Assembly (NCBI RefSeq): GCF_003287455.1
Contig: NZ_PRLC01000007.1
Location: 62,001 to 126,000, forward strand
Length of the DNA stretch: 64,000 bases
DNA from: Faecalibacterium hattorii
GTDB lineage: Bacteria > Bacillota > Clostridia > Oscillospirales > Ruminococcaceae
Direction of reading: 5' to 3'
Under the pieces are notes generated by a model. It saw only the letters and a list, made by a program, of their open reading frames with translations, was not told where the DNA came from and did no database searches. The stretch's first letter is position 1; every line of letters begins with the position of its first letter. The translations under genes and the position numbers were made by a program. Below are positions 96-63,196 of this stretch, in pieces.

Positions 96-1559
96 TTACA
101 GGGCAAGCGCCATGCCTGCGGAAATGGTCATTGTAACAGGAAGCGCTTTGGCACCCTGAGGAACATTTGGCCTCATGGGACGGAGCTCCTGCAGGTAGTC
201 CGTCACATCCTGCAGGAGCTGCTCAATATGAGCAATGTCCAGCGGGAGAATGCGGTCGCTCTGCAAGCCAAAAGAGTTATCGTTTGCATGGTTGACCTGA
301 TTGCGGTAATGTATCACCCTTTGATAAAGCATTGCCGCTCCTTCGACCTGTCGCTGTACCTTATGGTCTATGACCAGCTGTCCAAAATCAATTGCCTCCT
401 TCACATAGTCGTGGACCTCTTCTGCACTTGCCACGCCAAACAATATATTGCCGTCTTCATTTTCTCTGTTTCTGTTCAAGCGCAAATCTGCCGTATAGTG
501 AAGTTTTTGCTGCAGCAGCGCCATCCGGCAGAAATGGAAATGAAACAATGGATACACCCATGGTTTCCCTTTGTTCTCTTTCCGTGTTTCCAAATATTTG
601 AGCCCGCTTTCCGTAGGCTGTAAAAAAATATGGCTGCAAATATACTCCGGCATCTGCTCACACAACAATGTCAGCGCCTGCTGATATAACCCATGCTTTG
701 CACACCAGCTCACCAGTTCCGGCAGCTTATCCAAAGCCCTCCGGTTATTTTCCTGTGATGCCAGCAGACCTTCGAATTCCATACGGAAACGATCATTCAA
801 CAGATGAAAAAACAGGCTGATCAGGGTTTTGCTCTCTTTAGGCGGTGTCTGTAATGCCTGTGCGATCTGACGCAGATCCTCATTCAGTGCCTGCACCCGG
901 CACAAAGCCAGATCATCCGAGAATCGATTGATGCAGGTCAGCAGCATGTGCAGAACCGGGTCGTTTTCGCCTTCGCTCTGCAAGTAATTTTTCAGCTTTT
1001 GTGCCGTTCCGGTAGAAAAGAATTCGTCCATTGCTGTGATCAGGTCGAATAAATTGTACAGCATACTGCTGTCGTGGATGCGGGAAGTCCCGTCCGGGCA
1101 CAGCTCAGAATAGATCACTCTGCGGGTCTCCACGCCTCGCAGGTCCCGCATACACCGGGCAGCTGTTACCAGCAGCATGGCAGTGTCCCGCATACCACCA
1201 GAAAGGTCGATGGAAAGGGTATCTTCTGCTTCGATTTTACCCAGCAGCAAAGAGATCGCCCGGAACTGCGCTTGATCATCCATGCTGTCCGGCACCGGGA
1301 TCACCACAAGCCGCTCTGCCGGAATGTCCACTGAAGGCAGGAACACATCCCGGAAATACTCTACAGTGGTGCAGGTTTTTCCGTCCGGCAGATGCACGGT
1401 AGGTTTGGTGCGCACCAACTCACTGCACAGCGCCAGAATGTAGTCCGGGCCTTCTTTGTGCTTTCTTAGTTCCTGAACGGCCGCTTCGTTGGTTTGGGTA
1501 TGGATATTCGGATTTCTGCCGAACGGACTCATATACAAAAGCAATACATTGCGTTCCAT
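96..1559 (-). CDS. CARF-HEPN ribonuclease of the Csm6/Csx1 kind
   Basis: This 487-residue protein is the likely signalling effector of the type III-A system. Family members bind cyclic oligoadenylate made by Cas10 through a CARF domain and then cleave RNA with a HEPN domain. The N-terminus has the early CARF strand NVLLLYMSPFGR. A second CARF motif, IDLSGGMRD, lies near residue 118. The HEPN RNase motif R-x4-H is RNQVNH at 419-424. I chose the ATG at 1559 because AGGAGG lies nine bases upstream; an earlier in-frame ATG directly abuts that site. The gene is transcribed away from the csm operon and has its own promoter. It could belong to a TM1812/Csx2-like subfamily rather than strict Csm6; the exact subfamily needs a profile search. 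Confidence 0.8.
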   Translation of the reverse strand: MERNVLLLYMSPFGRNPNIHTQTNEAAVQELRKHKEGPDYILALCSELVRTKPTVHLPDGKTCTTVEYFRDVFLPSVDIPAERLVVIPVPDSMDDQAQFRAISLLLGKIEAEDTLSIDLSGGMRDTAMLLVTAARCMRDLRGVETRRVIYSELCPDGTSRIHDSSMLYNLFDLITAMDEFFSTGTAQKLKNYLQSEGENDPVLHMLLTCINRFSDDLALCRVQALNEDLRQIAQALQTPPKESKTLISLFFHLLNDRFRMEFEGLLASQENNRRALDKLPELVSWCAKHGLYQQALTLLCEQMPEYICSHIFLQPTESGLKYLETRKENKGKPWVYPLFHFHFCRMALLQQKLHYTADLRLNRNRENEDGNILFGVASAEEVHDYVKEAIDFGQLVIDHKVQRQVEGAAMLYQRVIHYRNQVNHANDNSFGLQSDRILPLDIAHIEQLLQDVTDYLQELRPMRPNVPQGAKALPVTMTISAGMALAL

Positions 1560-6851: not shown

Positions 6852-7797
6852 GCTTCAGTTTGACACAGCTGTTCATTTCGGAGGAGCCGACTCTGCATTG
6901 TCACTTTATACCTCCGAAGAAACCCTGCGGGCAGATACCCTGTTTTCTGCCCTCTGCCATGAGACCCTCGTCCAGCATGGAGAAGAAGCTCTGGAACAAC
7001 TTTGTGCGCAGGTCCAGCAGGGAAAATTCCTGCTCAGCGATACAATGCCCTGGTATGGCGAAACGTTTTACCTGCCAAAACCCATTGCCGCGTCAGAATC
7101 CGCTGAGGAAGTGGAAACCACCCTGCGCAAAAAGGTAAAAAAACTAGCCTGGATCCCTGTGTTGGAATTTGACCGCTACGCCAGAAGCCTACATGAAGGT
7201 CATTTTACCCCTGACGAGCAACCGGAAAGCTTTGGCACCCACTATGAGCAAACCAAGGCAGCCGTTCCCATGCAGGGGGATACCATGCCGTATCAGGTTG
7301 GACTGTTTTGTTTTGCGCCGGACTGCGGACTGTATTCCATCTGCGGATTTACCGAAGACGGTCAGGATGAAGATCTGGAGTATTTGCTGAATCAGCTGGG
7401 CGCTACCGGCATCGGCGGCAAAGTCAGCTCTGGTTATGGAAAGTTCCATGTCGTGGCCAAGATTTATCTGAACGAACCTTTTGACGAACAGACAGAGTGG
7501 ATGTATCACGCTCTTTCTGCCGAGCATGCACCTTATCTGCTGCTGAGCACCAGCCTGCCGCAGACAGATGAACTGGACAGCGCGCTGAAAGACGCCTCTT
7601 TCCAGCTCGTACGCCGCAGCGGCTTCATGGCATCTGATCGTGTGGAAACGCCACTGAAGAAAAAAACGCAGTATGCCCTTTCGGCAGGATCTGTCCTGCA
7701 AAATCGTTATCAGGGTGCTTTGTATGATGTTGGCTTGTCGGATGTGCATCCGGTATACCGCTATTCCAAACCGATCTTTATGGGGGTGACATTATGA
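6832..7797 (+). CDS. csm4: Csm4, crRNA 5'-tag binding RAMP
   Basis: The 321-residue protein fits Csm4, which caps the complex and holds the 5' tag of the crRNA next to Cas10. It begins with the RAMP strand YFLFKLQFDTAVHFGG and has the early motif LRADTLFSALC and the glycine-rich GIGGKVSSGYGKF. The start at 6832 follows GAGGTGG. Its end overlaps csm5 as ATGA. Confidence 0.9.
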   Translation: MNYFLFKLQFDTAVHFGGADSALSLYTSEETLRADTLFSALCHETLVQHGEEALEQLCAQVQQGKFLLSDTMPWYGETFYLPKPIAASESAEEVETTLRKKVKKLAWIPVLEFDRYARSLHEGHFTPDEQPESFGTHYEQTKAAVPMQGDTMPYQVGLFCFAPDCGLYSICGFTEDGQDEDLEYLLNQLGATGIGGKVSSGYGKFHVVAKIYLNEPFDEQTEWMYHALSAEHAPYLLLSTSLPQTDELDSALKDASFQLVRRSGFMASDRVETPLKKKTQYALSAGSVLQNRYQGALYDVGLSDVHPVYRYSKPIFMGVTL

Positions 7798-8882
7798 TTC
7801 AGCAGGATCATCTGCAGATCTTCGACCTTACTCTGAATGTATGGGCACCTCTGTTTGTTGGCAATGGCAGCAGCTGTACCAAAAAAGAGTACATGTACAA
7901 CACCCGCAATGGCAAAGTCTCCTTTCTGGACGAGCAAAAATTTTTCAGCTTTCTGGTCGAACGCGATCTGGTGGACAAGTATGAGCAGTTTATGCTTAGT
8001 GACCAGTCCAATCTTTGGGCGTTCCTGACCAAAGACTGCGGCATTTCCGATGTGGAACTGAAAACACTGACTCGTTATCAGATTGTGGCAGGTGATGCTC
8101 TGGATGCCAAGCATTCACTGAAAGGAATCCATGCTTTCCAGCGTGATGCACAAGGGCACGCCTACATTCCCGGCAGCAGCATCAAGGGTGCGCTGCGTAC
8201 TGCATGGCTGCTGAGTGCGGTATTGGCTGACCGCAGTACCGGACACAGCCTTGCACCAAACCGCCGGGCCACCTTTCCGGAAGAGAAATATGTCAACCAG
8301 CTGCACCTGCGCACTCTGAAAGATGGAAGCATCGCTTCGGACGCTGTCAACAGCATTTTCCGCGGCATTCAGATCTCGGACAGTCTCTCAATCCCGGACA
8401 ACTGCATGATGCTGGCCGGAAAAACAGACTCCGCCACAGATGGCGGAACCCACAGCATCAACCTCTGCCGGGAATGCGTCGCACCGGGCACAGCCATCCG
8501 GTTCAAGCTGACCCTGGATCAGTCTGTTCTGAAGGGCCGCATTACAAAAGACTCTCTGCTGGAATCCATCCAACAGTTCGATGCATCCTATCAGCAGACC
8601 TACGCTCGGCATTTTACCCTGCCGCGCGGTGCCGTCAACCTGCCGCAGCAGCCCTATCTGATCCTGGGCGGCGGCTCCGGGTTCTTTGCCAAGTCGCTAG
8701 CATATCTCTATCTGGGCGAAAAAGAAGGTTTGCGCTGGACAGCAGAGCAAATGGCGCAGATGTTCCGTAAACATAAGCATGAGCGTGATGCCGAAAATGG
8801 CATTTCCCCGCACACCATGAAATATGCTCGCTTTCGTGGTCGGCTTTATCCCTATGGACATTGCGGGGTGAGTATCTTATGA
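7794..8882 (+). CDS. csm5: Csm5, crRNA 3'-end RAMP
   Basis: The 362-residue protein fits Csm5, which sits at the far end of the backbone and helps with crRNA maturation. Visible motifs are LNVWAPLFVGNG at the N-terminus, YIPGSSIKGALRTAWL in the centre and the late LGGGSGFFAKSL. It starts inside the csm4 stop (ATGA) and ends in the same way on cas6. Confidence 0.92.
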   Translation: MIQQDHLQIFDLTLNVWAPLFVGNGSSCTKKEYMYNTRNGKVSFLDEQKFFSFLVERDLVDKYEQFMLSDQSNLWAFLTKDCGISDVELKTLTRYQIVAGDALDAKHSLKGIHAFQRDAQGHAYIPGSSIKGALRTAWLLSAVLADRSTGHSLAPNRRATFPEEKYVNQLHLRTLKDGSIASDAVNSIFRGIQISDSLSIPDNCMMLAGKTDSATDGGTHSINLCRECVAPGTAIRFKLTLDQSVLKGRITKDSLLESIQQFDASYQQTYARHFTLPRGAVNLPQQPYLILGGGSGFFAKSLAYLYLGEKEGLRWTAEQMAQMFRKHKHERDAENGISPHTMKYARFRGRLYPYGHCGVSIL

Positions 8883-9634
8883 TCCAGCAGATTCAACTGG
8901 TTTTATCTCCCCCCAATGATGTGCGGATTCCCCAGTCGTGGGCCTATCGTCTGTATGGTTGGCTGATGTCACAGATTTCTTCTGAATTTGGAGAGCAGAT
9001 GCATCTGCAAGGGGAACACCCCATTGCGCATTTTCTATGTTTTTCGCCGGAAAAACAGTCTTTGATCTGGACGGTCAACCTGCTGAATGACGCTGCTCGA
9101 CAGGTAGTTTTTCCCGTTTTGGAATCTGCAAAGGAAATCCCTCTGCATGAATTGGTGTTATCTGTTTCAGAGGTCCATGTCTCTTCAGCGGTTTCTGCTG
9201 CGGAAATCATTCGTGCCGGGCGTTCCTGCAGCGAAAACCGCACGAAATTGATTTTCCAGTCGCCATGTGCCTTCAAGCAGGCCGGTCGTTATGCTATTTA
9301 CCCACAGGAAAACCTGATCCTGCAAAGTTTGATTACACATTGGAATACAACGTTCCCAGAATACGCACTTACAGATTCTGATGCGCTACAAGCTTTACAG
9401 CAGGGACTTCACATTGTGGATTACAATCTCCATACGACACGTTACCTGCTAAAAGAAACACGAATCCCGTCCTTTCTCGGAAATGTAACGGTTGAAGCTC
9501 ACCTTGCACCACCACTTCTGGAATTGTGGAATACATTGCTCTCTTTTGCACCGTATGGTGGAATCGGCATCAAAACCACGCTCGGCATGGGTGGAACAAC
9601 TACAGCTTTTCAAAAGAGAAACTTCTGTACCTGA
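8879..9634 (+). CDS. cas6: Cas6, crRNA-processing endoribonuclease
   Basis: The 251-residue protein fits the Cas6 family, which cuts the pre-crRNA within each repeat and leaves the 8-base tag. It has a two-ferredoxin length and the glycine-rich loop GIGIKTTLGMGG near the C-terminus. A histidine in MHLQGEHPIAHFLCFS is the likely region of the catalytic histidine, but which one acts is uncertain. GGGGTGAG lies seven bases before the ATG, which overlaps the csm5 stop. It is last in the operon, and no cas1 or cas2 follows. Confidence 0.88.
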   Translation: MIQQIQLVLSPPNDVRIPQSWAYRLYGWLMSQISSEFGEQMHLQGEHPIAHFLCFSPEKQSLIWTVNLLNDAARQVVFPVLESAKEIPLHELVLSVSEVHVSSAVSAAEIIRAGRSCSENRTKLIFQSPCAFKQAGRYAIYPQENLILQSLITHWNTTFPEYALTDSDALQALQQGLHIVDYNLHTTRYLLKETRIPSFLGNVTVEAHLAPPLLELWNTLLSFAPYGGIGIKTTLGMGGTTTAFQKRNFCT

Positions 9635-52336: not shown

Positions 52337-53172
52337 TATTCTTTCTCAAACACCAAGAACCGGAAGGCGATGTCCGTCGTCAATTCCGGGAGGGCGGCGA
52401 GGCGGGCCGCGCCGTCGCGGGGCGTCTTCCAGTAGTAGGGCGTCATGGCGAAAAGCGCTTCGAGCTGGGCAGCGGGCACCGTGATGGTGCCGGAGACTTC
52501 CCGCTCTCCAATGGGGCGGAAACCCTCATAGGCCACCTGCTGCACCGGATTTTTGTAGGGCGTATCGTAGAGGATCGCCTTCATCTGGTACAGATGCTCC
52601 GCGCCGGGCACCACATAGATCATCCGCCCGCCGGGGCGCAGGACGCGGAGGAACTCCTCCCGCGCAAAGGGCGAGAAGCAGTTCAGCAGCAGGTCGGCCC
52701 AGCCGGTGCGGACGGGCTGGGCAAAGCTGGACGCCACGGCGTACCGGGCCGCGGGCAGAGCTTTGGCGGCCCAGCGGACCGCCGGTTTTGCGATGTCGAA
52801 CCCGGCCAGCGCCAGCGGCTGTTCCGCCGCTTCGAACTGCCCGGCGATGCACCGGTCATACCAGCCCTCACCGCAGCCCGCATCCAGCAGGTGCAGCGGC
52901 GCATCCGGCGCGGCGGGCTGGCCGTATTCGAGGCAAAGCTCGCCCAGCGCCTGACCAAAGATGCTGTAGTACCCCCCGTTGAGGAAAGCGCGGCGGGCGG
53001 CGACCATCTCCTTGCTGTCGCCGGGGGCCTTGGTGCGCATACTCTGCACCGGCAGCAGATGCCAGTAGCCCTCCTTGGCGCGGTCAAAGCAGTGGCCGGA
53101 GGGGCACTTCAGGTCCCGCTCACCGGTCAGCGGCCCGCCGCACAGCGGGCACTGCCACGGCTCACATTTCAT
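52336..53172 (-). CDS. rlmA: 23S rRNA (guanine-N1)-methyltransferase, RlmA type
   Basis: The 278-residue protein has the RlmA zinc finger (CPLCGG and CPSGHCFD) and the methyltransferase SAM motif [13 protein letters not shown]. Related enzymes modify G745 or G748 of 23S rRNA. The start at 53172 lies inside the end of the helicase gene, an 11-base overlap, so translation is probably coupled. Confidence 0.92.
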
Positions 53173-55084
53173 CGCTGTGATCCTCGATGGGGGCCGTTGC
53201 ACCGCCGTGGGCGTTCATATACTCCTCGAAGTTGGTGAACTTCTGCTGCGGCGGGCGGCGGCTGATGAGCACAAGGCCCGGATCTTCGTCCCGGCTGGGG
53301 GCAGCGGCACGGCCGCGCCCGCGGGAGGTCTCCTGCTTGGGGGCGCGGGGCGCACGGGCGGGCTGGCTGCTGCGCTCACTGCGGAGTTTGCCGCTCTGGG
53401 CACTGTTCTGGGCCGGGCGGGCAGCGCGGTCGCCGTTACGCTCCGTGCGCTCATTGCGGCTGCCGCGGGCCGGGCGGCTCTGGCCGTTCTGGCCGTTCGG
53501 CTGGGCATTGCGGCGGTTCTGGCCGCTGCCCTGTTCGCTCTTGGCGTTGTTCGCTGCCGGAGCGGCCTTGGCGGCGGGCTGAGCCGGGGCGGCCTTCTTC
53601 ACAGGGCGGAGCGGCGTTGCCTCCGGGGCGCTCACAAAGTGGGGGTCAAACTTGGGCTGCGCATTGCTGCCCCGGTTGGGGGCGGCACTGTCCTCGCGGC
53701 GGGGGCGGTTATTATTGGAACGGCGGTTTTCATTGCGCCCGCCGGAAGTTCGCTTCTGATTTTCGTCCATGGATGGTTCCTCTTTCGGTTGAGATTTCAA
53801 CGGCTGCTTTTCTGCGGCCGGTTTTTCTTTTTTGGGTCTGGCCGGTTTCACGGCCTTGGCGGGCTGTTCCGGCTTGGCAGCCGGGGCTTCGGCTTCCGCC
53901 TTGGGCTTTTTGCCCCGCACCGGCGGCTCCTTCTTGGCGGGGGCGGGCACGCCGTCCCACGGGTGGCCGGACACCACCGGGATCTTCTGGCGGTTCAGCT
54001 TTTCGATGCCGGCCAGATACTCCTGCTCCTCCGGGGCGCAGAAGCTGACGGCGGTGCCGTCTGCGCCCGCGCGGGCCGTGCGGCCGATGCGGTGGACGTA
54101 AGTTTCCGGCACTTCGGGCAGGTCGTAGTTGAAGACATGGGACAGCTCGCTGATGTCGATGCCGCGGGCGGCGATGTCGGTGGCGACCAGCACCTTGGTC
54201 TGCCCGGCCTTGAAGCCTTCCAGCGCGGCCACACGGGCAGACTGGCTCTTGTTGCCGTGGATGGCGGCGGCGGGGATGCCTTGCTTGTTCAGGTCTTTTG
54301 CGATCTTATCCGCGCCGTGCTTGGTGCGGCTGAAGACCAGCGCGTTCTGCACCGGCGGGTTCAGGTTCTGGATAAGCCACGGCAGCAGGAATTTCTTGTT
54401 GCCCTTCTCGACGAAGTACAGGCTCTGGTCGATGCGGTCCACCGTGCTGGACACGGGATCCACCTTGACGAAGGCGGGGTCGTGCAGGATGCCCGCCGCC
54501 AGCTGCTCGATCTCCTTGGGCATGGTGGCGCTGAACATCAGGTTCTGGCGCACTTTGGGCAGCTTTGCGATGACCTTCTTCACGTCATGCACAAAGCCCA
54601 TGTCCAGCATCCGGTCGGCCTCGTCCAGCACGAAGATCTCGATGCTGCCGAGGTCGATGAGCCCCTGCCCCACAAGGTCGTTCAGGCGGCCGGGGCAGGC
54701 GATGAGGATATCGACGCCCTTTTTGATGGCTGCCACCTGCGGGGCCTGACCCACACCGCCGAAAATGACGGTGCTGCGCAGAGAGAGGTACTTGCCGTAC
54801 ATTTCAAAGCTCTCGCCGATCTGCAGAGCCAGCTCACGGGTGGGGGTGAGGATCAGGGCGCGGACAGCCCCTTTCTTCTTCGCAGGGTTCGCGGTCAGGC
54901 GGTCGAGCATGGGCAGCGCAAAGGCTGCGGTCTTGCCGGTGCCCGTTTGGGCGCAACCCATCAAGTCCCTCCCGGCCAGCACCGGCGGGATGGCCGATGC
55001 CTGAATGGGCGAGGGGGATTCGTAACCCGCCTCCGCAACGGCACGCAGCAGCGGGGCGGACAGATTCAGTTCGTTAAAAGTCAT
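53162..55084 (-). CDS. DEAD-box RNA helicase with long basic C-terminus
   Basis: The 640-residue protein has a full RecA-like core of about 370 residues: Q-motif, [42 protein letters not shown] and [11 protein letters not shown] basic, low-complexity tail rich in Lys, Pro, Arg, Asn and Gln follows (about 380-640), which can bind RNA. It fits the RhlE/CshA group of cold- or ribosome-linked helicases and overlaps rlmA. Confidence 0.94.
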
Positions 55085-55111
55085 GGTTCTCCTGTATCAA
55101 TAAAATGTTTC

Positions 55112-55151
55112 CCTCTTTGCCAGAGGCTCCCCCTGCTGGGGGAGCTGGCAT
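55112..55151. repeat. Fragment of the short palindromic repeat
   Basis: GCCAGAGGCTCCCC and a GCTCCCC/GGGGAGC hairpin match the right part of the element at 18188-18377. It sits between the DUF1015 gene and the helicase. Confidence 0.55.
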
Positions 55152-55161
55152 TTCGTAACGT

Positions 55162-56457
55162 TTATTCTTTGATCTTACGGCACTCGATGTAGTACCGCTT
55201 TTCCTCCGCATGGCCCATGCTGAAGGTCTTGCGGGGCAGCACGCCGCCCATCACGATGCCCTTGAACAGGTCGCTCTTTTCAAAGGGCGGCAGCAGGAAG
55301 GCCACGCCGCCCTGCTGTTTGCACAGGGCACGGACGGCGGGCTCGTCGTGGACGTAATCCACGCGGGCCTCGATGTGGCGGGCCATAAAGTATTCGATGA
55401 AGGTGTCGATGGTGCCGACGGTCAGGGGCGCAATGGGGCGCTCGAAGCTGAGCACGTTGGCAATGTGGGGGCCCGCCAGCGTAAAGGACTGCTGCTTGGC
55501 ATCGCCGAAGCAGATGCCCGCGTTGTTGGAGTCGCTCCACGCGATGAGGGCCAGCAGCACCGCGCCGCAGTCCACATTGAACAGCACGCGGTGGATGGGC
55601 TCGATTTCAATGGCCGGGGAGTGGATGTTGCACACCTCGGCAAGGCACCACCGGGCCGGGTGGTGTTCCCGCTGCTCCGGGGTCAGGGTGGGCTTCAGCT
55701 CCTCCCAGCAGGCCTTGGCGGAAGCCAGCGAGTGATTGCCATCGCCGACGGCCAGCGTCAGCGGCGCGGCCCCCTTGGCCTCCGGGTATTTGGCGTCAAA
55801 GGCTTTCTGACTGCCCAGTTGCTGCAAGGCGGCGTCGATCTGGGCCAGCAGCGCCGGGTCCTCCACGGCCCAGCCCGCAATGTGGCCGCCGCCCAGCATC
55901 AGTTCGCCCTCGTAGACTTTGCGCAGCTGCGCCTTTTTCTCACCGATGGGCTCGATGAGGGTGCAGTCCGGGTCGTCGGCCAGCATCATGATGTGGGGCG
56001 TTTCGAGGCTGGCCCCCCGCCGGACGGCCATCCGGGGCGGGATGCGGCTCTCCACCGTGTGCTCGCTGGGGCGGATGTCCGCCTTGGCGCCCTCGGCGTA
56101 GCTGTAGGCTTCGAGGTCGATCTTGCCCACGAGGCCCTGCCGCACCCGGCCGCTCTGCTCGGTGCGCTCCACGTAGATGAAGCCGTCCACAGCGCGGGTC
56201 AGCACCGACTGGGTGTATTCGTCCATGGCCGCATGGATCGTTTCGATCTTCCGGGGGACATCCTCGTCTTCCAGATACACTTCCGGCAGGATCAGGTTCA
56301 GCGCACTGGGTGAACCTGCCGCTGCCCATTCCGCCTTTTCCCAATAGGAGCGGTCGCTGGTGAACTGGTCACAGGCCACGCAGCCCCACTGCTCCAGTTT
56401 GATCTGCTCCGACGGCAGCAGGATATGTGCCGGGGAAAAGCAGGATGTTTTTTTCAT
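55162..56457 (-). CDS. DUF1015 family protein
   Basis: The 431-residue protein fits DUF1015, which often sits beside serine or central-metabolism genes. Features are WGCVACDQFTSDRSYW near the N-terminus, VDGFIYVERT, LAVGDGNHSLASAKACWE and GGVAFLLPPF. Function is unknown. The ATG at 56457 follows GAGGGAGGAA. It is 37 bases downstream of the glycosidase-like gene. Confidence 0.85.
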   Translation of the reverse strand: MKKTSCFSPAHILLPSEQIKLEQWGCVACDQFTSDRSYWEKAEWAAAGSPSALNLILPEVYLEDEDVPRKIETIHAAMDEYTQSVLTRAVDGFIYVERTEQSGRVRQGLVGKIDLEAYSYAEGAKADIRPSEHTVESRIPPRMAVRRGASLETPHIMMLADDPDCTLIEPIGEKKAQLRKVYEGELMLGGGHIAGWAVEDPALLAQIDAALQQLGSQKAFDAKYPEAKGAAPLTLAVGDGNHSLASAKACWEELKPTLTPEQREHHPARWCLAEVCNIHSPAIEIEPIHRVLFNVDCGAVLLALIAWSDSNNAGICFGDAKQQSFTLAGPHIANVLSFERPIAPLTVGTIDTFIEYFMARHIEARVDYVHDEPAVRALCKQQGGVAFLLPPFEKSDLFKGIVMGGVLPRKTFSMGHAEEKRYYIECRKIKE

Positions 56458-56494: not shown

Positions 56495-57616
56495 TCATTC
56501 AAAAATTCCAGCCGTCGGGTCCCACACGACGACATGTTCCGCACCCGCCTCGGTCTGGCTCTGGATAAGAGCGGTGTGCTCCTCGTCGGCCATGGTGGAA
56601 GCCGAGGGCACCCGCACCAGCAGGTTCTTCACGCCCAGCTCCACCGCCGGGACGCCCAGCGTCGGGGAGGTGCCGGTCACCTCGGCCAGTGTATAGCTGT
56701 ACCAGAGGGTCACGCTGCCGCCGAAACGCTGTTCCCACGCGGTGATGTCTGCCGTCAGCTGGTCGGCGCGGCCCACACCGTTGGTGGAGCCGTAGTCCTG
56801 CTTGCTGCTGGTAGAGGAGGGGAACTGGACATTTTCCAGCACGATCTGGTCAAAGCCCGCCGTGTGCAGCTCGTCGATGAGGTCGCCAATGTACTGCACC
56901 GCCTCGGCGGCATAGGGGTTCAGCCACGGATTACCGCCAGCGGACGCCTTGTTGTCCAGCCAGAGGTACTCCTGATTCTTATACCGGATGGCCATGGCGT
57001 GATCCACGCGGGCACCGGCAGGGTCCCGGAAGGCGGCAAGCTTCGCCACCGGGATCAGGCCCTCGTCCTTGAAGATGGAGGCCACCTTGGCCGGGTCCAC
57101 CGTCACGCCGGCAGGGCTGGCCGCTGCGGCGGGCACCTGCGAAGCGTAATAGACGGCACCGGCGGCATCCTTCAGGGTGACGACCGCGTACTTTGCGCCC
57201 TGCGCAGCGAGCTGCTGGGCTGCGGCGCGGATGGCGGCATCATCGGTCAGGGTCGTGAGGTCGGCCTCTGCCCAAGCGCCCTCCACGATGGCGGTGCCGT
57301 CCACAGCGGGGGTCACCACCTCCGGCTGGGCCTCCGAAGAAGCTGCCGGTTCCTCCGCCACGGACGACGCCGTGCTCTCGGCTGCCGACGAAGCGCTCCC
57401 GCCCGCCGGGGAGGAGGCGGAAAGATCCCGGTTGCGCACGACGGTGTACCACGTATGGGTCGCCCAGTCCAGCACATGCGGCGCGGCCACCCATGCAGCG
57501 GCCAGCACCACGAGGACCAGCACCGCGATGCCAATGCCCTTTTTCACCCGCATCTCGCGGCTGTAAAAGCTGCGCCGGTAGCGCTTGACCTTCTGGCGTT
57601 TTGGATATTTTGCCAT
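56495..57616 (-). CDS. Membrane-anchored putative glycoside hydrolase (GHL13/DUF4015-like)
   Basis: The 373-residue protein has a basic N-terminus, one membrane segment (GIAVLVLVVLAAAWVAAP, about 29-46), a Ser/Ala linker and a TIM-barrel-like domain (GLIPVAKLAAFRDP, NPWLNPYAAEAVQYI, DELHTAGFDQIVLENVQFPS). It resembles putative glycoside hydrolases of the DUF4015 group, related in style to the gene at 12296-13579. It lies 25 bases after rnfA in the same direction. Confidence 0.7.
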   Translation of the reverse strand: MAKYPKRQKVKRYRRSFYSREMRVKKGIGIAVLVLVVLAAAWVAAPHVLDWATHTWYTVVRNRDLSASSPAGGSASSAAESTASSVAEEPAASSEAQPEVVTPAVDGTAIVEGAWAEADLTTLTDDAAIRAAAQQLAAQGAKYAVVTLKDAAGAVYYASQVPAAAASPAGVTVDPAKVASIFKDEGLIPVAKLAAFRDPAGARVDHAMAIRYKNQEYLWLDNKASAGGNPWLNPYAAEAVQYIGDLIDELHTAGFDQIVLENVQFPSSTSSKQDYGSTNGVGRADQLTADITAWEQRFGGSVTLWYSYTLAEVTGTSPTLGVPAVELGVKNLLVRVPSASTMADEEHTALIQSQTEAGAEHVVVWDPTAGIFE

Positions 57617-57641: not shown

Positions 57642-58250
57642 TTACAAGATCACGGAATGGCCGGTAAAGCCATAGATGGCCAGCGCCAGCACACCGATGT
57701 AGATCAGCGTGATGGGCAAGCCGCGAAACGCTTCCGGGATGGCCCGGCTGCGCAGACGATTCTGGGCTTCCGTCACCAGCATGACGGCCAGCAGATAGCC
57801 GAGGCCGCTGCCAAGGCCGAAGCCGATGGACTGTTCCAGCGTAAAGCTCTGGGTGCGCTCGACCAGAACGGTGCCCAGCACGCCGCTGTTCACGGCGGCG
57901 ATGGGCAGGATGCGGATGAGCTGGCCGCTGCGCGGGCCCTTGGCCAGCTTCAGGACCACCAGCTCAAACAGGCAGACCACCGCGATGCACGCAAGGTACA
58001 CCACCGGGCGAAGCTGGGCGCGGTTGGGCAGCGGGGCGAGGAGGCGGCCCGCATAAAAGGCCAGCGGAGCCACCAGTACCTGCGTGATGCAGAGCATCAG
58101 CGCGAACCACCAGCTGCTGGTCCGCTTGTCGCCGACCAGTTGGACAAGGCGGGAAACGCCGAGGCCGCGGGTGAAGATGGCATTCTGGGCAAAGATGGCC
58201 AGCACCGCGTAGCTGAAGAACACGCCCACAAGATGCAGCACTTCGCTCAT
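57642..58250 (-). CDS. RnfA-like membrane protein lacking the cluster cysteines
   Basis: The 202-residue protein has six membrane segments and aligns with RnfA. The usual LGICPFLGVSK is shortened to RGLGVSRL, and the second cysteine site (TTNCAVLG) is VNSGVLG. In studied Rnf complexes these cysteines hold an iron-sulfur cluster between RnfA and RnfE. The start overlaps rnfE as ATGA. An Rnf gene symbol is withheld because the role may differ. Confidence 0.8.
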   Translation of the reverse strand: MSEVLHLVGVFFSYAVLAIFAQNAIFTRGLGVSRLVQLVGDKRTSSWWFALMLCITQVLVAPLAFYAGRLLAPLPNRAQLRPVVYLACIAVVCLFELVVLKLAKGPRSGQLIRILPIAAVNSGVLGTVLVERTQSFTLEQSIGFGLGSGLGYLLAVMLVTEAQNRLRSRAIPEAFRGLPITLIYIGVLALAIYGFTGHSVIL

Positions 58251-58978
58251 TCTTTCTCCTCCTTCCCGCTCTCTTGGCTCTGGGGATGCACGGCCAGATA
58301 GCCGCGCGCCTCATTTTTCAGGTATTCGCGCTGTTTGCGGGCCAGCGCACGCCAGACGGCGCACACCACGCCCAGCACGATGAAGCCGCCCGCCGGCATA
58401 CTGGCCATGGGCAGGATGGAGCGGCTCAGCTCCACGCCGAACACGGTGCCGAAGGCCAGCCACTCGCGGACGCAGCCAAGGATCAGCAGGAGCAGCGCGT
58501 AGCCCAGCGTGATGCGCAGACCTTTCGAGACAGCCTTATGCATGGACTCCTGCACCCGGCCAAACCGGTAGGTCAGCAGCGGCTCCACCACCAGCATGGG
58601 CAGGTAGACGCCCATCGTCAGCAAGTCGGTGCCGAACAGCATGTTCAGGATGGGGTAGGCGGCGAGGTAGACCACCGCCGCACTGCCGCTGTACACAAAG
58701 GCACGGGGCAGCAGCTTCTTTTCCAGCTCCTCCGGCTCCGGGCGCTCGTCCCGCAGCGGGCACAGGCGGCTCAGAAGGCACGCCAGCATCCGGGAAGGCG
58801 TCAGCAGCAGAGCCACGGCCACCGCCAGCATCGCGGCGTTTTTGCCCGAAGTGGCAAGGACCACCAGCGGAGCCAGACCCATGCCCTGCATCACGACAGG
58901 GTTGTTTTTGAAAATGCGGTCATGGTGCGCGAACTTTTCAGGGTCGCGCGCGATCGCTTCGGCAATATGACGTCTCAT
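58247..58978 (-). CDS. RnfE-like membrane protein lacking the cluster cysteines
   Basis: The 243-residue protein aligns with RnfE: KNNPVVMQGMGLAPLVVLAT, VYLPMLVVEPLLTYRFGRV and ILGCVREWLAFGTVFG. The usual LGLCP reads MGLAP and the VVNC site reads VVEP, so both cluster cysteines are gone. A basic, charged C-terminal tail is added. It overlaps rnfD and rnfA by four bases each. Confidence 0.8.
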   Translation of the reverse strand: MRRHIAEAIARDPEKFAHHDRIFKNNPVVMQGMGLAPLVVLATSGKNAAMLAVAVALLLTPSRMLACLLSRLCPLRDERPEPEELEKKLLPRAFVYSGSAAVVYLAAYPILNMLFGTDLLTMGVYLPMLVVEPLLTYRFGRVQESMHKAVSKGLRITLGYALLLLILGCVREWLAFGTVFGVELSRSILPMASMPAGGFIVLGVVCAVWRALARKQREYLKNEARGYLAVHPQSQESGKEEKE

Positions 58979-59979
58979 TCCGCATCCTCCTTCCGGTTCA
59001 GCAGCCGATAGAGGCGGGTCTCGGTGCGGTCCAGCCAGCCGGAAATGCTGTTGACCGTAAGCAGCGCAAAGCAGACGCCCGTATCATAGACGCCGAAATA
59101 GCGGAACCCCATGGTCGCGGCACCCACCAGCACGCCGTACAGGATGCGGCCGATGCGGTGGTGGGCGCAGGTGTAGGGCTCGTTGAGCAGGAACACCGCG
59201 CTGAAGAGCATCGCGCCGGTCAGCAGCTCGTCCCGCACACACTGCAAACGGGAGAGCAGACCTGCCGCGAAAGAGGCGTCCATCAAACCCACCTGACGGG
59301 GGAAGAAGAAGGCAATGAGGGCGCTCGTCACCAAGAAACTGACGGTCGCGCTCAGGCGGGTATCCTTCTGCAGCCAGAGGAAGAACCCGCACGCCAAGAT
59401 CACCAGCGCAGCACCGGTGCCCATGGGGGCGGCGTACTCGCCCAGCCCCAGCGACAGGGAGCCGATGTTCAGGATGCCGCCGCTGCGCAGAGTCTGGGAG
59501 ACGGTGTCAGACACCGGCACACCGGGAGCGTCCCACAGCGGGATGTTCGTGTAGGGCTGCGGGTAGCGGAACACCTGTTCCGGCCACGACACCGCCGCCA
59601 CCGTGTAGCCGACAGCCGCCGGATTGAAAGGATAGCTGCCGTAGCCGCCGAAGACCTCCTTGCCGATAAGGACACCGGCCAGCACGGCGGCGATGAGGAC
59701 GTACCAGTCCACCGTCACCGGCATCAGCAGCGCGATGAGGAGGGCAAAGCTCTCGTTGGAGCAGTCCTTGGGTTGGTAGACGCGGCGGCGGAGCAGCGAC
59801 ACCAGACGGTCGCAGAGGTTACCGGTCAGCAGGGCCGCGCCGCAGAGCAGCAGCGGCCGCAGCCCGTACAGAAAGCAGGACACGCACAGCAGCGGCACCA
59901 CCATCCAGCAGAGGTGCTTGTAGTAATGGCCGGTCTTGGCCAGCTCCCGCTCCTGCGCACGGATCAAAGTTTCATCCAT
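58975..59979 (-). CDS. RnfD-like membrane protein
   Basis: The 334-residue protein aligns with RnfD/NqrB: VFGGYGSYPFNPAAVGYTVA, MGTGAALVILACGFFLWLQ and LLNEPYTCAHHRIGRILYGV. In RnfD a threonine of an SGAT motif carries covalent FMN; here the region reads SDTVSQTLRSGG, one residue shorter and without SGAT. The ATG at 59979 follows GAGGAG; the upstream frame belongs to rpe. It starts 13 bases after rpe. Confidence 0.85.
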   Translation of the reverse strand: MDETLIRAQERELAKTGHYYKHLCWMVVPLLCVSCFLYGLRPLLLCGAALLTGNLCDRLVSLLRRRVYQPKDCSNESFALLIALLMPVTVDWYVLIAAVLAGVLIGKEVFGGYGSYPFNPAAVGYTVAAVSWPEQVFRYPQPYTNIPLWDAPGVPVSDTVSQTLRSGGILNIGSLSLGLGEYAAPMGTGAALVILACGFFLWLQKDTRLSATVSFLVTSALIAFFFPRQVGLMDASFAAGLLSRLQCVRDELLTGAMLFSAVFLLNEPYTCAHHRIGRILYGVLVGAATMGFRYFGVYDTGVCFALLTVNSISGWLDRTETRLYRLLNRKEDAE

Positions 59980-59992
59980 GGTGCGGCTCCTC

Positions 59993-60643
59993 TCACAGAG
60001 CGGCCAGACGGCGCACAGCGGCCGCCGGGTCGGCTGCGCCGAAGACGGCGCTGCCCGCCACGAGGATGTCGGCCCCCGCTTCCACGCAGAGGGGCGCGGT
60101 GGTGTCGTCCACACCGCCGTCCACTTCCAGCAGGAAGTGAGCGTTGCGCTTGGCCCGCTCTTCCCGCAGCCAGCGCAGCTTTTCCAGCGCCGAGGGCATG
60201 AACTTCTGCCCGCCAAAACCCGGCTCCACGCTCATCACCAGCACAAGGTCCAGCTGGTCGAGGTAGGGGCTGAGCGCCTCCGGGGCGGTGCCCGGCTTGA
60301 TGGTCAGGCCCACCTTGCAGCCCTGCGCCTTGATGGCGTCGATGGTGGCTTGGATGTCGTCCTCGCATTCGAGGTGGAAGTTCTGCAAGGTGGCACCGGC
60401 CTTGGCGAAGGGTTCCGCGTAGGCCAGCGGATGACTGATCATCAGGTGGACATCGTAGAAGGCGGCGGGCATCCCCTTGTGGAGGCTTTTCAGCACCGGC
60501 ACGCCGAAGCTGATGTTCGGCACAAAGTGGCCGTCCATCACGTCGTAGTGCAGCATCTGCGCTCCGGCGTCCAGAACCATCTGGCAGTCGGCACCCAGCT
60601 TGGTAAAATCAGCCGAAAGGATCGAAGGACTTACAATCGTCAT
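59993..60643 (-). CDS. rpe: Ribulose-phosphate 3-epimerase
   Basis: The 216-residue TIM barrel matches Rpe: SPSILSADFTKLG, HYDVMDGHFVPNISFG, VHLMISHP, MSVEPGFGGQKFMP and DGGVDDTT with the metal ligands. It interconverts ribulose-5-P and xylulose-5-P. It leads the Rnf-like run and shares direction and close spacing with it. Confidence 0.97.
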   Translation of the reverse strand: MTIVSPSILSADFTKLGADCQMVLDAGAQMLHYDVMDGHFVPNISFGVPVLKSLHKGMPAAFYDVHLMISHPLAYAEPFAKAGATLQNFHLECEDDIQATIDAIKAQGCKVGLTIKPGTAPEALSPYLDQLDLVLVMSVEPGFGGQKFMPSALEKLRWLREERAKRNAHFLLEVDGGVDDTTAPLCVEAGADILVAGSAVFGAADPAAAVRRLAAL

Positions 60644-60836
60644 ATTCGTTTGTACTCTCCGTTATTTTTACGAAAAATTTTGCTATTTGGCCCGGTTCTG
60701 TCGCTCCTGTGCAGACAGAATTCAGGGTAGACATAGCTATTTTTATTTTACATGAAAACACGCAAAAAATCAAACCCACAGCCGTGTTTTTCACGGAAAA
60801 GACGCAAAAATCCATTTCACGGCCCCGGCAATACAA

Positions 60837-60885: not shown

Positions 60886-62400
60886 TTAATCCACCGGTTT
60901 CATGCTGGCGGGGTCTTCCACCGGCACCGGGCGGCCCGATTCGTCCGGCAGACGCTTGATCTCACCGGGGTTGGGCGGGCAGGTGGGCAGGGTGAAGACG
61001 AACTGGCACCACTCGCCCTGCTGGCTCTCGACCCGGATCTGGCCGCCGGACAGGTTGACCAGCACCTTGCAGATATTCAGGCCGAGGCCCGCGCCCCGCG
61101 CATGGAGCCCGCGGGACTTGTCTTCCTTATAGAAGCGCTGGAACACATGGGGCAGCGCCTCCGGGCTGATGCCCTGCCCGGAGTTCCAGATGGAAACTTC
61201 CACCTCCGGGCCCAGCTTCTCGACCTTGAACTTAATGGTCCCGCCCGCCGGGGTGAACTTGATGGCGTTATCCAGCAGGTTGTACGCGACCTGATGGATC
61301 AGATCCGGGTCGGCGTAGACGAGAACTTTCTCGTCCATGGTCAGGCCCTCCAGCTCGATCATGCCGTCGTTGATCCGCTGCTCGGCCGAAAGAGCCACGC
61401 CGGTCAGGGTCTCCCAGATGTTGAACATCCGGGCGTTGACCTGATACTCGCCGCTCTCCAGCTTGGACAGATCCAGCATGTTCTGGATCAGCCGGGCAAG
61501 GCGGCCCGTCTCCTCCGAGACGAGCTGCAAATAGTGGTTCTGCATATCGGGCGGGATGGTCCCGTCCAGAATGCCGTCGATGAAGCCCTTGATGGTGGTC
61601 ATCGGGGTGCGCAGCTCGTGGGCGATGTTTCCCATGAACTGCCCACGGGAGTTGTCGTTGGACTGGATGTTCTCCGCCATCCGGTTGAAGGTGTTGGCCA
61701 GATCGGCCACCTCGCCTTCGCCCTCCACGCCCTCGACCCGGACGGAGAAATCGCCCCCGCCGAACCGCTGGGCCGCATCGGTGATCTTCTGGAGCGGGTC
61801 GGTGAGCCGCCGCATCAGGAAGGAGGTCACCACGCTGGCGCAGAGCAGCATGATGCAGGCCGAGAAGAAGAAGTTCGACCCGAACTCTTGCTTGAAGGCC
61901 GTCAGCCGTGCGCCGGAGGAGCAGAGGAACAGATACCCGCTGCACACGCCCTGCGCATCCCGCGTCTGCCGGACGGAGACGTAGCTCTTTTCGGTCAGCA
62001 CGCCGTCCAGCGTGCTCAGCACATGGTAGGGCTTATCCTCCCCCACCTTGGCTATCAGCTCTTCGGGCACCGTCTCCTTGGCCAGCAGCTCCGGATTGGA
62101 CGTGATGAGAACGCTGCCGTCCTCATCGGTGAAAAAGAGGTAGGCCTCCGCGCTCTCGCCGATGATCACCAGCTTGTCGCTCAGTGCGGCCAGCTCGTCG
62201 CCGCCGGGCAGCGCCGCCTGCTGCACCACGTAGTCCGCCGCCCGCTGGGTGACCTCGGCCACGCTGTCCAGCGCCTCGTAGCGCTCCTGCGCGAAATAGC
62301 GGTTGAACAGGACCCATTCCGAGAATCCCATCACCGCCGTGCCCAGCACCAGAAGGGTCGCCACCATCGAAAAGAAGGTGACGGAAATACTTTTGCGCAT
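60886..62400 (-). CDS. Sensor histidine kinase
   Basis: The 504-residue kinase has a membrane segment at 9-30, an extracellular sensor of about 140 residues, a second segment near 180-195, HAMP, HisKA (GNIAHELRTPMTTIKGFIDG) and HATPase (VYADPDLIHQVAYNLLDNAI, GAGLGLNICKVLV). It starts inside the stop of its regulator (TAATG), so the two are translated together. Confidence 0.94.
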   Translation of the reverse strand: MRKSISVTFFSMVATLLVLGTAVMGFSEWVLFNRYFAQERYEALDSVAEVTQRAADYVVQQAALPGGDELAALSDKLVIIGESAEAYLFFTDEDGSVLITSNPELLAKETVPEELIAKVGEDKPYHVLSTLDGVLTEKSYVSVRQTRDAQGVCSGYLFLCSSGARLTAFKQEFGSNFFFSACIMLLCASVVTSFLMRRLTDPLQKITDAAQRFGGGDFSVRVEGVEGEGEVADLANTFNRMAENIQSNDNSRGQFMGNIAHELRTPMTTIKGFIDGILDGTIPPDMQNHYLQLVSEETGRLARLIQNMLDLSKLESGEYQVNARMFNIWETLTGVALSAEQRINDGMIELEGLTMDEKVLVYADPDLIHQVAYNLLDNAIKFTPAGGTIKFKVEKLGPEVEVSIWNSGQGISPEALPHVFQRFYKEDKSRGLHARGAGLGLNICKVLVNLSGGQIRVESQQGEWCQFVFTLPTCPPNPGEIKRLPDESGRPVPVEDPASMKPVD

Positions 62401-63095
62401 TACTGACGCACCTCGAACTTATAGCCCACGCCCCAGACGGTCTTCAGCTCCCACTTGTCGGAAGCGCCGGACAGCTTCTCGCGCAGACGCTTGACGTGGA
62501 CATCGATGGTGCGGCTGTCGCCGTAATACTCGAAGCCCCAGACCTCGTCCAGAAGCTGATCGCGGGTGTAGACCCGGTTGGGGTGAGATGCCAGACAGTT
62601 GAGCAGCTCCAGCTCCTTGGGGGGAGCCTCCACCACCTTGCCCTTGACCCGCAGCTCGTAGCTGTTCATATCCAGCCGGAGGTTGTCGAACTCGATGACG
62701 CCCTCTTTCGTCTCGGTCTGGGTGGAAGCGGTGCAGCGGCGCAGCACCGCCTTGATACGGGCCACGACCTCTTTTGCATCGAAGGGCTTGACCATATAAT
62801 CGTCGGCGCCCAGTTCAAGGCCCAGCACCTTATCGAAGGTCTCGCCCTTGGCCGTCAGCATCATGACGGGGGTGTTGCCCAGCTTGCGGATACGGCGGCA
62901 GACTTCCAGACCGTCCATCTTGGGCATCATCACATCCAGCAGCACCATGTCGGGCTTGACCTGATTGAACTTGTCCAGCCCCTCTTCGCCGTCGTTGGCG
63001 ATGGTGACCTGATAGCCCTCCTTGGTCAGATAGAGCCGCAGCAGCTCGCAGATATTCACGTCGTCATCCACGACAAGGATCTTTTCGTTTGCCAT
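62400..63095 (-). CDS. OmpR/PhoB-type response regulator
   Basis: The 231-residue regulator has a receiver domain (ILVVDDDVNICELLRLYL, VLLDVMMPKMDG, MVKPFDAKEV) and a winged-helix domain (PPKELELLNCLASHPNRVYT, RTIDVHVKRLREKLSG). GGAGGAA precedes the ATG at 63095. It pairs with the kinase at 60886-62400. Confidence 0.95.
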   Translation of the reverse strand: MANEKILVVDDDVNICELLRLYLTKEGYQVTIANDGEEGLDKFNQVKPDMVLLDVMMPKMDGLEVCRRIRKLGNTPVMMLTAKGETFDKVLGLELGADDYMVKPFDAKEVVARIKAVLRRCTASTQTETKEGVIEFDNLRLDMNSYELRVKGKVVEAPPKELELLNCLASHPNRVYTRDQLLDEVWGFEYYGDSRTIDVHVKRLREKLSGASDKWELKTVWGVGYKFEVRQ

Positions 63096-63196
63096 GAGTG
63101 TTCCTCCTGTATCTCGACTCGTTCGTCGTTTGTGATCGTCTCTTAAAAAGCGTCCCACGCACCGGGACGGCTGTTTTCAATGAATGCCTATCTTCT

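Follow-up and report, generated by a model that had tools for sequence, protein, structure and literature searches.

What can subunits of an Rnf complex do once the residues that hold their cofactors have gone? The question is raised by a run of genes in Faecalibacterium hattorii, within the 64,000-nucleotide stretch analysed here (the window; positions 62,001 to 126,000 of contig NZ_PRLC01000007.1, G000:C50:62001-126000 in our numbering), whose parent assembly comprises 2.79 Mb with a stated completeness of 99.96%. The run is headed by rpe, encoding ribulose-phosphate 3-epimerase (59993..60643, minus strand; TIGR01163, 253 bits against a cut-off of 212.6), and continues downstream with three overlapping genes on the same strand, which encode homologs of the Rnf membrane subunits D, E and A and are termed D' (58975..59979), E' (58247..58978) and A' (57642..58250). 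It is very probable, judging from profile matches and alignments, that these genes form a distinct set that has lost the cofactor residues of Rnf. More tentatively, we suggest that the set descends from a duplicated Rnf, shed these residues and now persists as a D-E-A core that may carry ions or solutes with no coupling to electron transfer, a reading to which we assign a probability of roughly 0.4. The sequences themselves supply homology, the A' and E' clades, synteny, purifying selection, loss of cofactor residues and an acidic residue at a putative Na+ site.

Homology of D', E' and A' to RnfD, RnfE and RnfA is evident from Pfam, from alignment to chains of a solved structure and from phylogeny. 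D' matches PF03116 (NQR2_RnfD_RnfE; E 1.7e-52) as its sole domain, with no NAD-binding domain fused to it, and E' and A' both match PF02508 (Rnf-Nqr; E 6.9e-23 and 5.5e-22), the sequence alignment suggesting that A' is folded like RnfA. Scores against the NCBIfam models rnfA, rnfE and rnfD (69.6, 50.1 and 124 bits for A', E' and D', respectively) lie far below the cut-offs of 229.3, 213.4 and 207.05. The membrane cluster of the Clostridium tetanomorphum complex is held by Cys25 and Cys113 of RnfA and Cys26 and Cys109 of RnfE (PMC9588780), and the ligand sites were set by alignment to the corresponding chains, 7zc6_A and 7zc6_E. In the window these four positions are occupied by Ser33 and Ser122 in A' and by Ala36 and Pro133 in E'. 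The original prediction, made from this DNA without database searches, had stated that all four cluster cysteines were replaced; its residues are correct, and the alignment places no cysteine at any of the ligand sites. It had overlooked that D' also lacks the flavin-attachment motif.

The same sites were counted in 135 or 136 paralogue rows and in 16 canonical rows, E. coli rsx among them. Cysteine is found at the first A' site in 0/136 and at the second E' site in 0/135, at the first E' site in one of 135 (L171), and at the second A' site, equivalent to the second ligand cysteine of RnfA, in 65/136. Counted by set (n = 134), 69 have no ligand cysteine, 64 have one and a single set has two, against four in each of the 16 canonical sets. 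A scan of our species-genome collection with A' yielded 51 named loci, by design from close relatives only (Faecalibacterium, Gemmiger, Fournierella, Ruthenibacterium, Anaerofilum, Pygmaiobacter and other Oscillospiraceae or Clostridia). When these are taken together with the window, the first A' site is serine in 51/52 and threonine in 1/52, the second is serine in 19, threonine in 18 and cysteine in 15 (n = 52), and the two E' sites are alanine and proline throughout (51/51 each); Arg34 of A' is invariant across 24 rows. Since the second RnfA cysteine is so often kept in relatives, the loss was not simultaneous, and the prediction that every ligand had disappeared at once does not hold. Ligand loss is, on these alignments, stepwise, with three sites emptied early; survival of the A' cysteine in about half of the sets indicates that the fourth ligand was lost later and more than once. 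A salt bridge between a basic residue of A' and an acidic one of E' at the former cluster position was also considered; the association across 134 sets (p 2e-12) falls to p 0.3 when the window and L040-L090 are left out and is explained by kinship.

A flavinylation-like motif is present in 0/135 D' sequences compared with 14/16 canonical RnfD, and the Arg and Glu residues that lie near flavin mononucleotide (FMN) in RnfD are lost as well. RnfD is similar to transporters of urea and ammonium, and Na+ may bind at its Asp248 (PMC9588780). The equivalent position in D' is acidic in 123/135 sequences (70 Asp, 53 Glu), the residue in the window being Glu267. Near-invariant residues that are new to D' comprise Tyr38, Phe118, Ala122, Pro227, Arg228 and Glu251.

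A complete canonical rnfCDGEAB operon is located elsewhere in the same genome (G000:C46, about 73.2-78.4 kb). It has the cysteine motifs GICP, TTNC, GTC and VVNC, together with SSATPL in RnfD and GGAGFPT in RnfC, and its RnfA scores 228.0 bits, slightly below the cut-off of 229.3. Genome-wide, PF02508 has four matches, split evenly between the window and C46, PF03116 has two and RnfC_N has one, at C46. As read from its genes, the Faecalibacterium cell therefore has a normal Rnf plus an extra D'E'A' set. The earlier statement that rnfB, rnfC and rnfG are absent stands for the locus, with no match to RnfB, RnfC or RnfG in the window or the 51 named loci; all three genes are present in the canonical operon. 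It might be supposed that the locus is an ordinary second Rnf, as the printed name "rnf operon" implies; the Pfam names of the subunits point that way, as does a figure legend in PMC10781979 that counts two putative rnf operons, rnfDEA and rnfCDGEAB. A locus without cluster ligands, flavin motif, RnfB, RnfC and RnfG contradicts this on sequence, and we find the idea scarcely credible. The D'E'A' genes are misleadingly annotated, and their function has probably changed.

A different possibility is that D'E'A' pairs with subunits of the canonical complex as an accessory in regulation, storage or assembly. Among 148 genomes of the family, canonical RnfA scores above the cut-off in 122 and marginally below it in six more, and A' is present in at least 108 (81 read as loci, that of the F. 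hattorii genome included, and 27 by score alone), so that most genomes with A' carry both. In three drafts that are 94-97% complete (G105, G160 and G163), however, A' occurs without a canonical RnfA match. The residues that are near-invariant in canonical subunits are also mostly gone from the set, those kept (at least 70%) numbering 14/58 in A', 11/58 in E' and 18/63 in D', and an accessory role appears distinctly improbable.

The paralogue set was found in six families of the order. Of 20 further regions, nine are canonical operons and eleven are paralogue stretches (L171-L178 from family f22 in our numbering, L182 from f13, L184 from f6 and L179 from f9); L169 is a ninth f22 stretch and L150 adds f21. 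The L182 stretch ends after E', that of L184 is without rpe, and L179 has rpe and a homolog of RnfC, termed RnfC', up to the contig end. In L184 about 300 low-complexity residues precede the membrane part of E' (7632-9194, plus strand); a fused RnfG was considered for this N-terminal part, which gave no match and is low-complexity in appearance. A class-wide A' search was uninformative on spread, canonical RnfA scoring up to about 150 bits and A' not being separated from it. RnfC' is present in 33 of 75 deep sets, where the gene order C-D-E-A is retained with G omitted; the deep sets yielded no RnfG and, towards RnfB, merely weak matches of ferredoxin-type frames (18-26 bits). RnfC' exceeds 230 bits in three of 243 class genomes, all from f22, and those of L176, L177, L179 and L182 reach 186-217 bits, no higher than canonical RnfC. 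Outside the order the best score is 219.5 bits, a value attainable by canonical RnfC, so that spread beyond the order is not shown, although a weak RnfC' could be present there.

Phylogenetic analysis of A and E together (97 rows selected from the available sets, a quick search with support from the Shimodaira-Hasegawa-like approximate likelihood ratio test, SH-aLRT, only) places A' in one clade (support 87 for 32 rows, or 95 for the 31 rows without L184) and E' in another (33 rows, support 97). These clades lie beside RnfA and RnfE of Clostridia, the A and E types being split with full support, and their branches are long relative to those of the canonical subunits. The simplest reading of this topology would be a single duplication of an Rnf operon, followed by loss of the B and G genes.

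The order rpe-D'-E'-A' is conserved in 50/51 named loci, the exception (L054) being a contig end with A' alone; the original prediction had proposed a search for the same cysteine-free run beside rpe in other genomes, and the search returned the run beside rpe. E' reaches at least 210 bits in 29 of the 31 genomes of the genus, the remaining two being 80% and 79% complete. All four frames are open in the window, and among relatives internal stops are found in A' of G078 and G336 and in E' of G026, all drafts, the other frames being nearly all open. The ratio of nonsynonymous to synonymous substitution (dN/dS; counted by the simple Nei-Gojobori method in 42 rows, in which a species may occur more than once) between the window and its nearest relative is 0.12 for A', 0.23 for E', 0.13 for D' and 0.03 for rpe, with medians across pairs of 0.35, 0.37, 0.31 and 0.25, respectively. 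Selection on D'E'A' is purifying, yet looser than on rpe, and the claim that the genes are intact and under selection is upheld. The looser constraint, the long branches, the few drafts with one internal stop and the loss of RnfC' in the Faecalibacterium group are all features expected if the genes were decaying remnants of a lost second Rnf, and 12 inspected genomes (L192-L203) carry the DUF4015 gene described below with no C', D', E' or A' match, which indicates that the set can be lost cleanly. Apart from this clean absence, which is one partial sign, the marks of pseudogenes (broken frames, relaxed selection, scattered loss) are not seen. Open frames, dN/dS of 0.12-0.23 to the nearest relative, invariant replacements (Ala and Pro in E', Arg34 in A') and the spread of the set across several families all argue against decay, which we regard as very improbable. 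The prediction had set two findings against itself, a complete second Rnf operon together with decaying copies: the operon exists, and the copies, with frames open in nearly all relatives, are not decaying. Because the copies are conserved, mostly intact and under purifying selection while every examined cofactor site has changed, a new role, as originally proposed, appears far likelier than decay.

In the carrier that we propose, an old duplicate of the Rnf operon would have become fixed beside rpe within the order, and would have lost rnfB, rnfG, the iron-sulfur residues of A and E and the covalent-FMN residues of RnfD, while the D-E-A membrane core stayed. A' and E' would remain paired in an inverted two-fold arrangement able to open to either side of the membrane, and D' would still provide a path like that of ammonium and urea transporters, with a cation-binding acid. 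The substrate would now be a cation or small solute, carried with no ferredoxin:NAD electron transfer. Where relatives have RnfC', gating of the carrier may fall to its clusters; the Faecalibacterium set, from which RnfC' is gone, should contain no known redox centre. In Na+-NQR, the redox state of the cluster sets whether NqrD-E is open towards the cytoplasm or towards the periplasm (PMC10643135). It is conceivable, if doubtful, that the inverted A'/E' pair, with half-helices that formerly held the iron-sulfur centre, gives an ion or small solute alternating access at the emptied cluster site, with D' as the cation path.

Several observations weigh against a carrier. RnfC' retains two 4Fe-4S motifs, favouring a redox link in those relatives that have it, and a ligand cysteine persists in A' of about half of the sets. 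In D' the Asn near riboflavin in RnfD is still Asn in 82/135, so that a loosely bound flavin is possible, and threonine occupies the aligned FMN column in 11/135, the flavin loop of D' being one that aligns poorly. FMN_bind has four other loci in the F. hattorii genome, none near the window and the nearest on other contigs. In one small draft (L107) only A' follows rpe, an assembly fault or a real loss accounting for the missing D' and E', and a riboswitch search of 21 loci found none and hence gave no hint of a substrate. Another reading is a redox device with a shortened path, running from the clusters of RnfC' to a non-covalent flavin in D', with A' and E' as a scaffold or, through the remaining cysteine, a site for another metal. 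The GGAGFPT motif of the FMN loop, however, is missing at its site in 33/33 RnfC', and no RnfG-like partner lies beside the sets; in addition, Complex1_51K is below its cut-off in 4/4 RnfC' tested, compared with 138 bits for canonical RnfC. The F. hattorii genome has no RnfC', its top match to the RnfC' profile being at canonical level (E 2.1e-37), and with no RnfC match in the 51 named loci either, a shortened path cannot explain Faecalibacterium; we consider it unlikely overall.

Comparison with known systems places the set nearest to Rnf (RnfABCDGE; C. tetanomorphum 7zc6 and the rnfCDGEAB operon of F. hattorii), with A', E', D' and RnfC' homologous to RnfA, RnfE, RnfD and RnfC. The set differs in being without cluster ligands, flavinylation motif, RnfB and RnfG, and its RnfC' either lacks the FMN loop or is absent. 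Na+-NQR (NqrABCDEF) has related subunits in NqrE, NqrD and NqrB, A' aligning to the NqrE chain 7xk3_E with E 5.3e-11, but this enzyme keeps its cluster and both covalent FMN (PMC9588780, PMC10643135); no NqrF-like gene turned up at the locus, although no search by that name was made. In the NQR/RNF-like flavinylation systems, reported mainly from Actinobacteria and candidate phyla, the RnfD-like part is likewise without the RnfD flavinylation site, but these are described as lacking RnfA and RnfE and as combining an NAD-binding domain with an RnfG-like partner that is flavinylated (PMC8238504, PMC11334425). D'E'A' has neither a fused NAD-binding domain nor a nearby FMN_bind partner and does not belong with them.

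Downstream of A' lies a gene for a putative glycosyl-hydrolase-like protein with DUF4015 (GHL; 56495..57616, minus strand; PF13200, E 1.3e-15), whose membership of the run is unsure. It has one N-terminal hydrophobic or transmembrane segment (residues 27-45), and its closest solved relative, 4s1a, is an uncharacterised protein; the term DUF4015 was absent from the open PMC papers that a search for it listed. GHL adjoins A' in 40/51 named loci and in 68 of 80 deep regions, the other 12 comprising seven paralogue sets and five canonical operons, and a DUF4015 gene occurs in 109/148 genomes of the family, nearly always as one copy. Co-occurrence with A' is strong (Fisher table 91/11/18/28, p 6e-10) but confounded by synteny and kinship, and the table precedes the transfer of G172 and five inspected genomes to the A' side. 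The single N-terminal transmembrane segment and the place after A' made GHL appealing as a substitute for RnfG. This was ruled out, since L192-L203 have GHL without C'D'E'A' (11 with rpe, L196 without), 11 genomes have A' without a DUF4015 match, and the canonical operon of L183 is also followed by DUF4015. In L183, from another family of the order, a canonical C-D-G-E-A-B operon precedes the DUF4015 gene (280-1518, minus strand), which may be the layout from before the duplication.

Upstream of rpe the window encodes a histidine kinase and a response regulator (60886-63158, minus strand), and kinase and regulator clusters 5 and 6 adjoin rpe in 38/51 and 35/51 named loci. A promoter-like site ahead of rpe (60745..60773, minus strand) comes from a consensus scan only, which gave 8 sites against 1.3 expected in shuffles. 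In three deep relatives a MecA-like gene on the opposite strand lies between rpe and C' or D' (L104, 2678-3559; L110, 3565-4179; L166, 2763-3341; all minus strand). An open frame of 705 codons (53075-55192, plus strand), antisense to a DEAD-box helicase gene, is probably a shadow frame of GC-rich coding sequence.

The rnfDEA genes of F. duncaniae A2-165 (CG447_09840-830) have been described as a putative rnf operon, one of a pair that would serve energy conservation (PMC10781979), and are very likely the same locus, judged by gene content and genus. The accessible portion of that paper does not mention cofactor loss for rnfDEA, a term that we found in the open PMC literature in this paper alone, nor do the parts of a review available to us (PMC12174285) mention such a paralogue. 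Our searches of the open PMC literature found no description of cofactor loss in D'E'A'.

Rnf and Nqr are taken to require flavins and an iron-sulfur centre in the membrane. Dominant butyrate-forming bacteria of the gut have a conserved family that shed the residues binding them, and so offer a natural test of which parts of this machine can work without electrons. The annotation is corrected at the same time: the genes match rnf models, and one paper includes them as a second rnf operon that conserves energy, whereas D'E'A' should be left out when butyrate energetics are modelled. Sets with or without RnfC', and with no, one or two ligand cysteines, make the order of loss readable. If the emptied-site carrier is real, the conformational machine of Nqr and Rnf would run without electrons, and living relatives would preserve a series that leads from sets with an iron-sulfur RnfC' to sets without any known cofactor.

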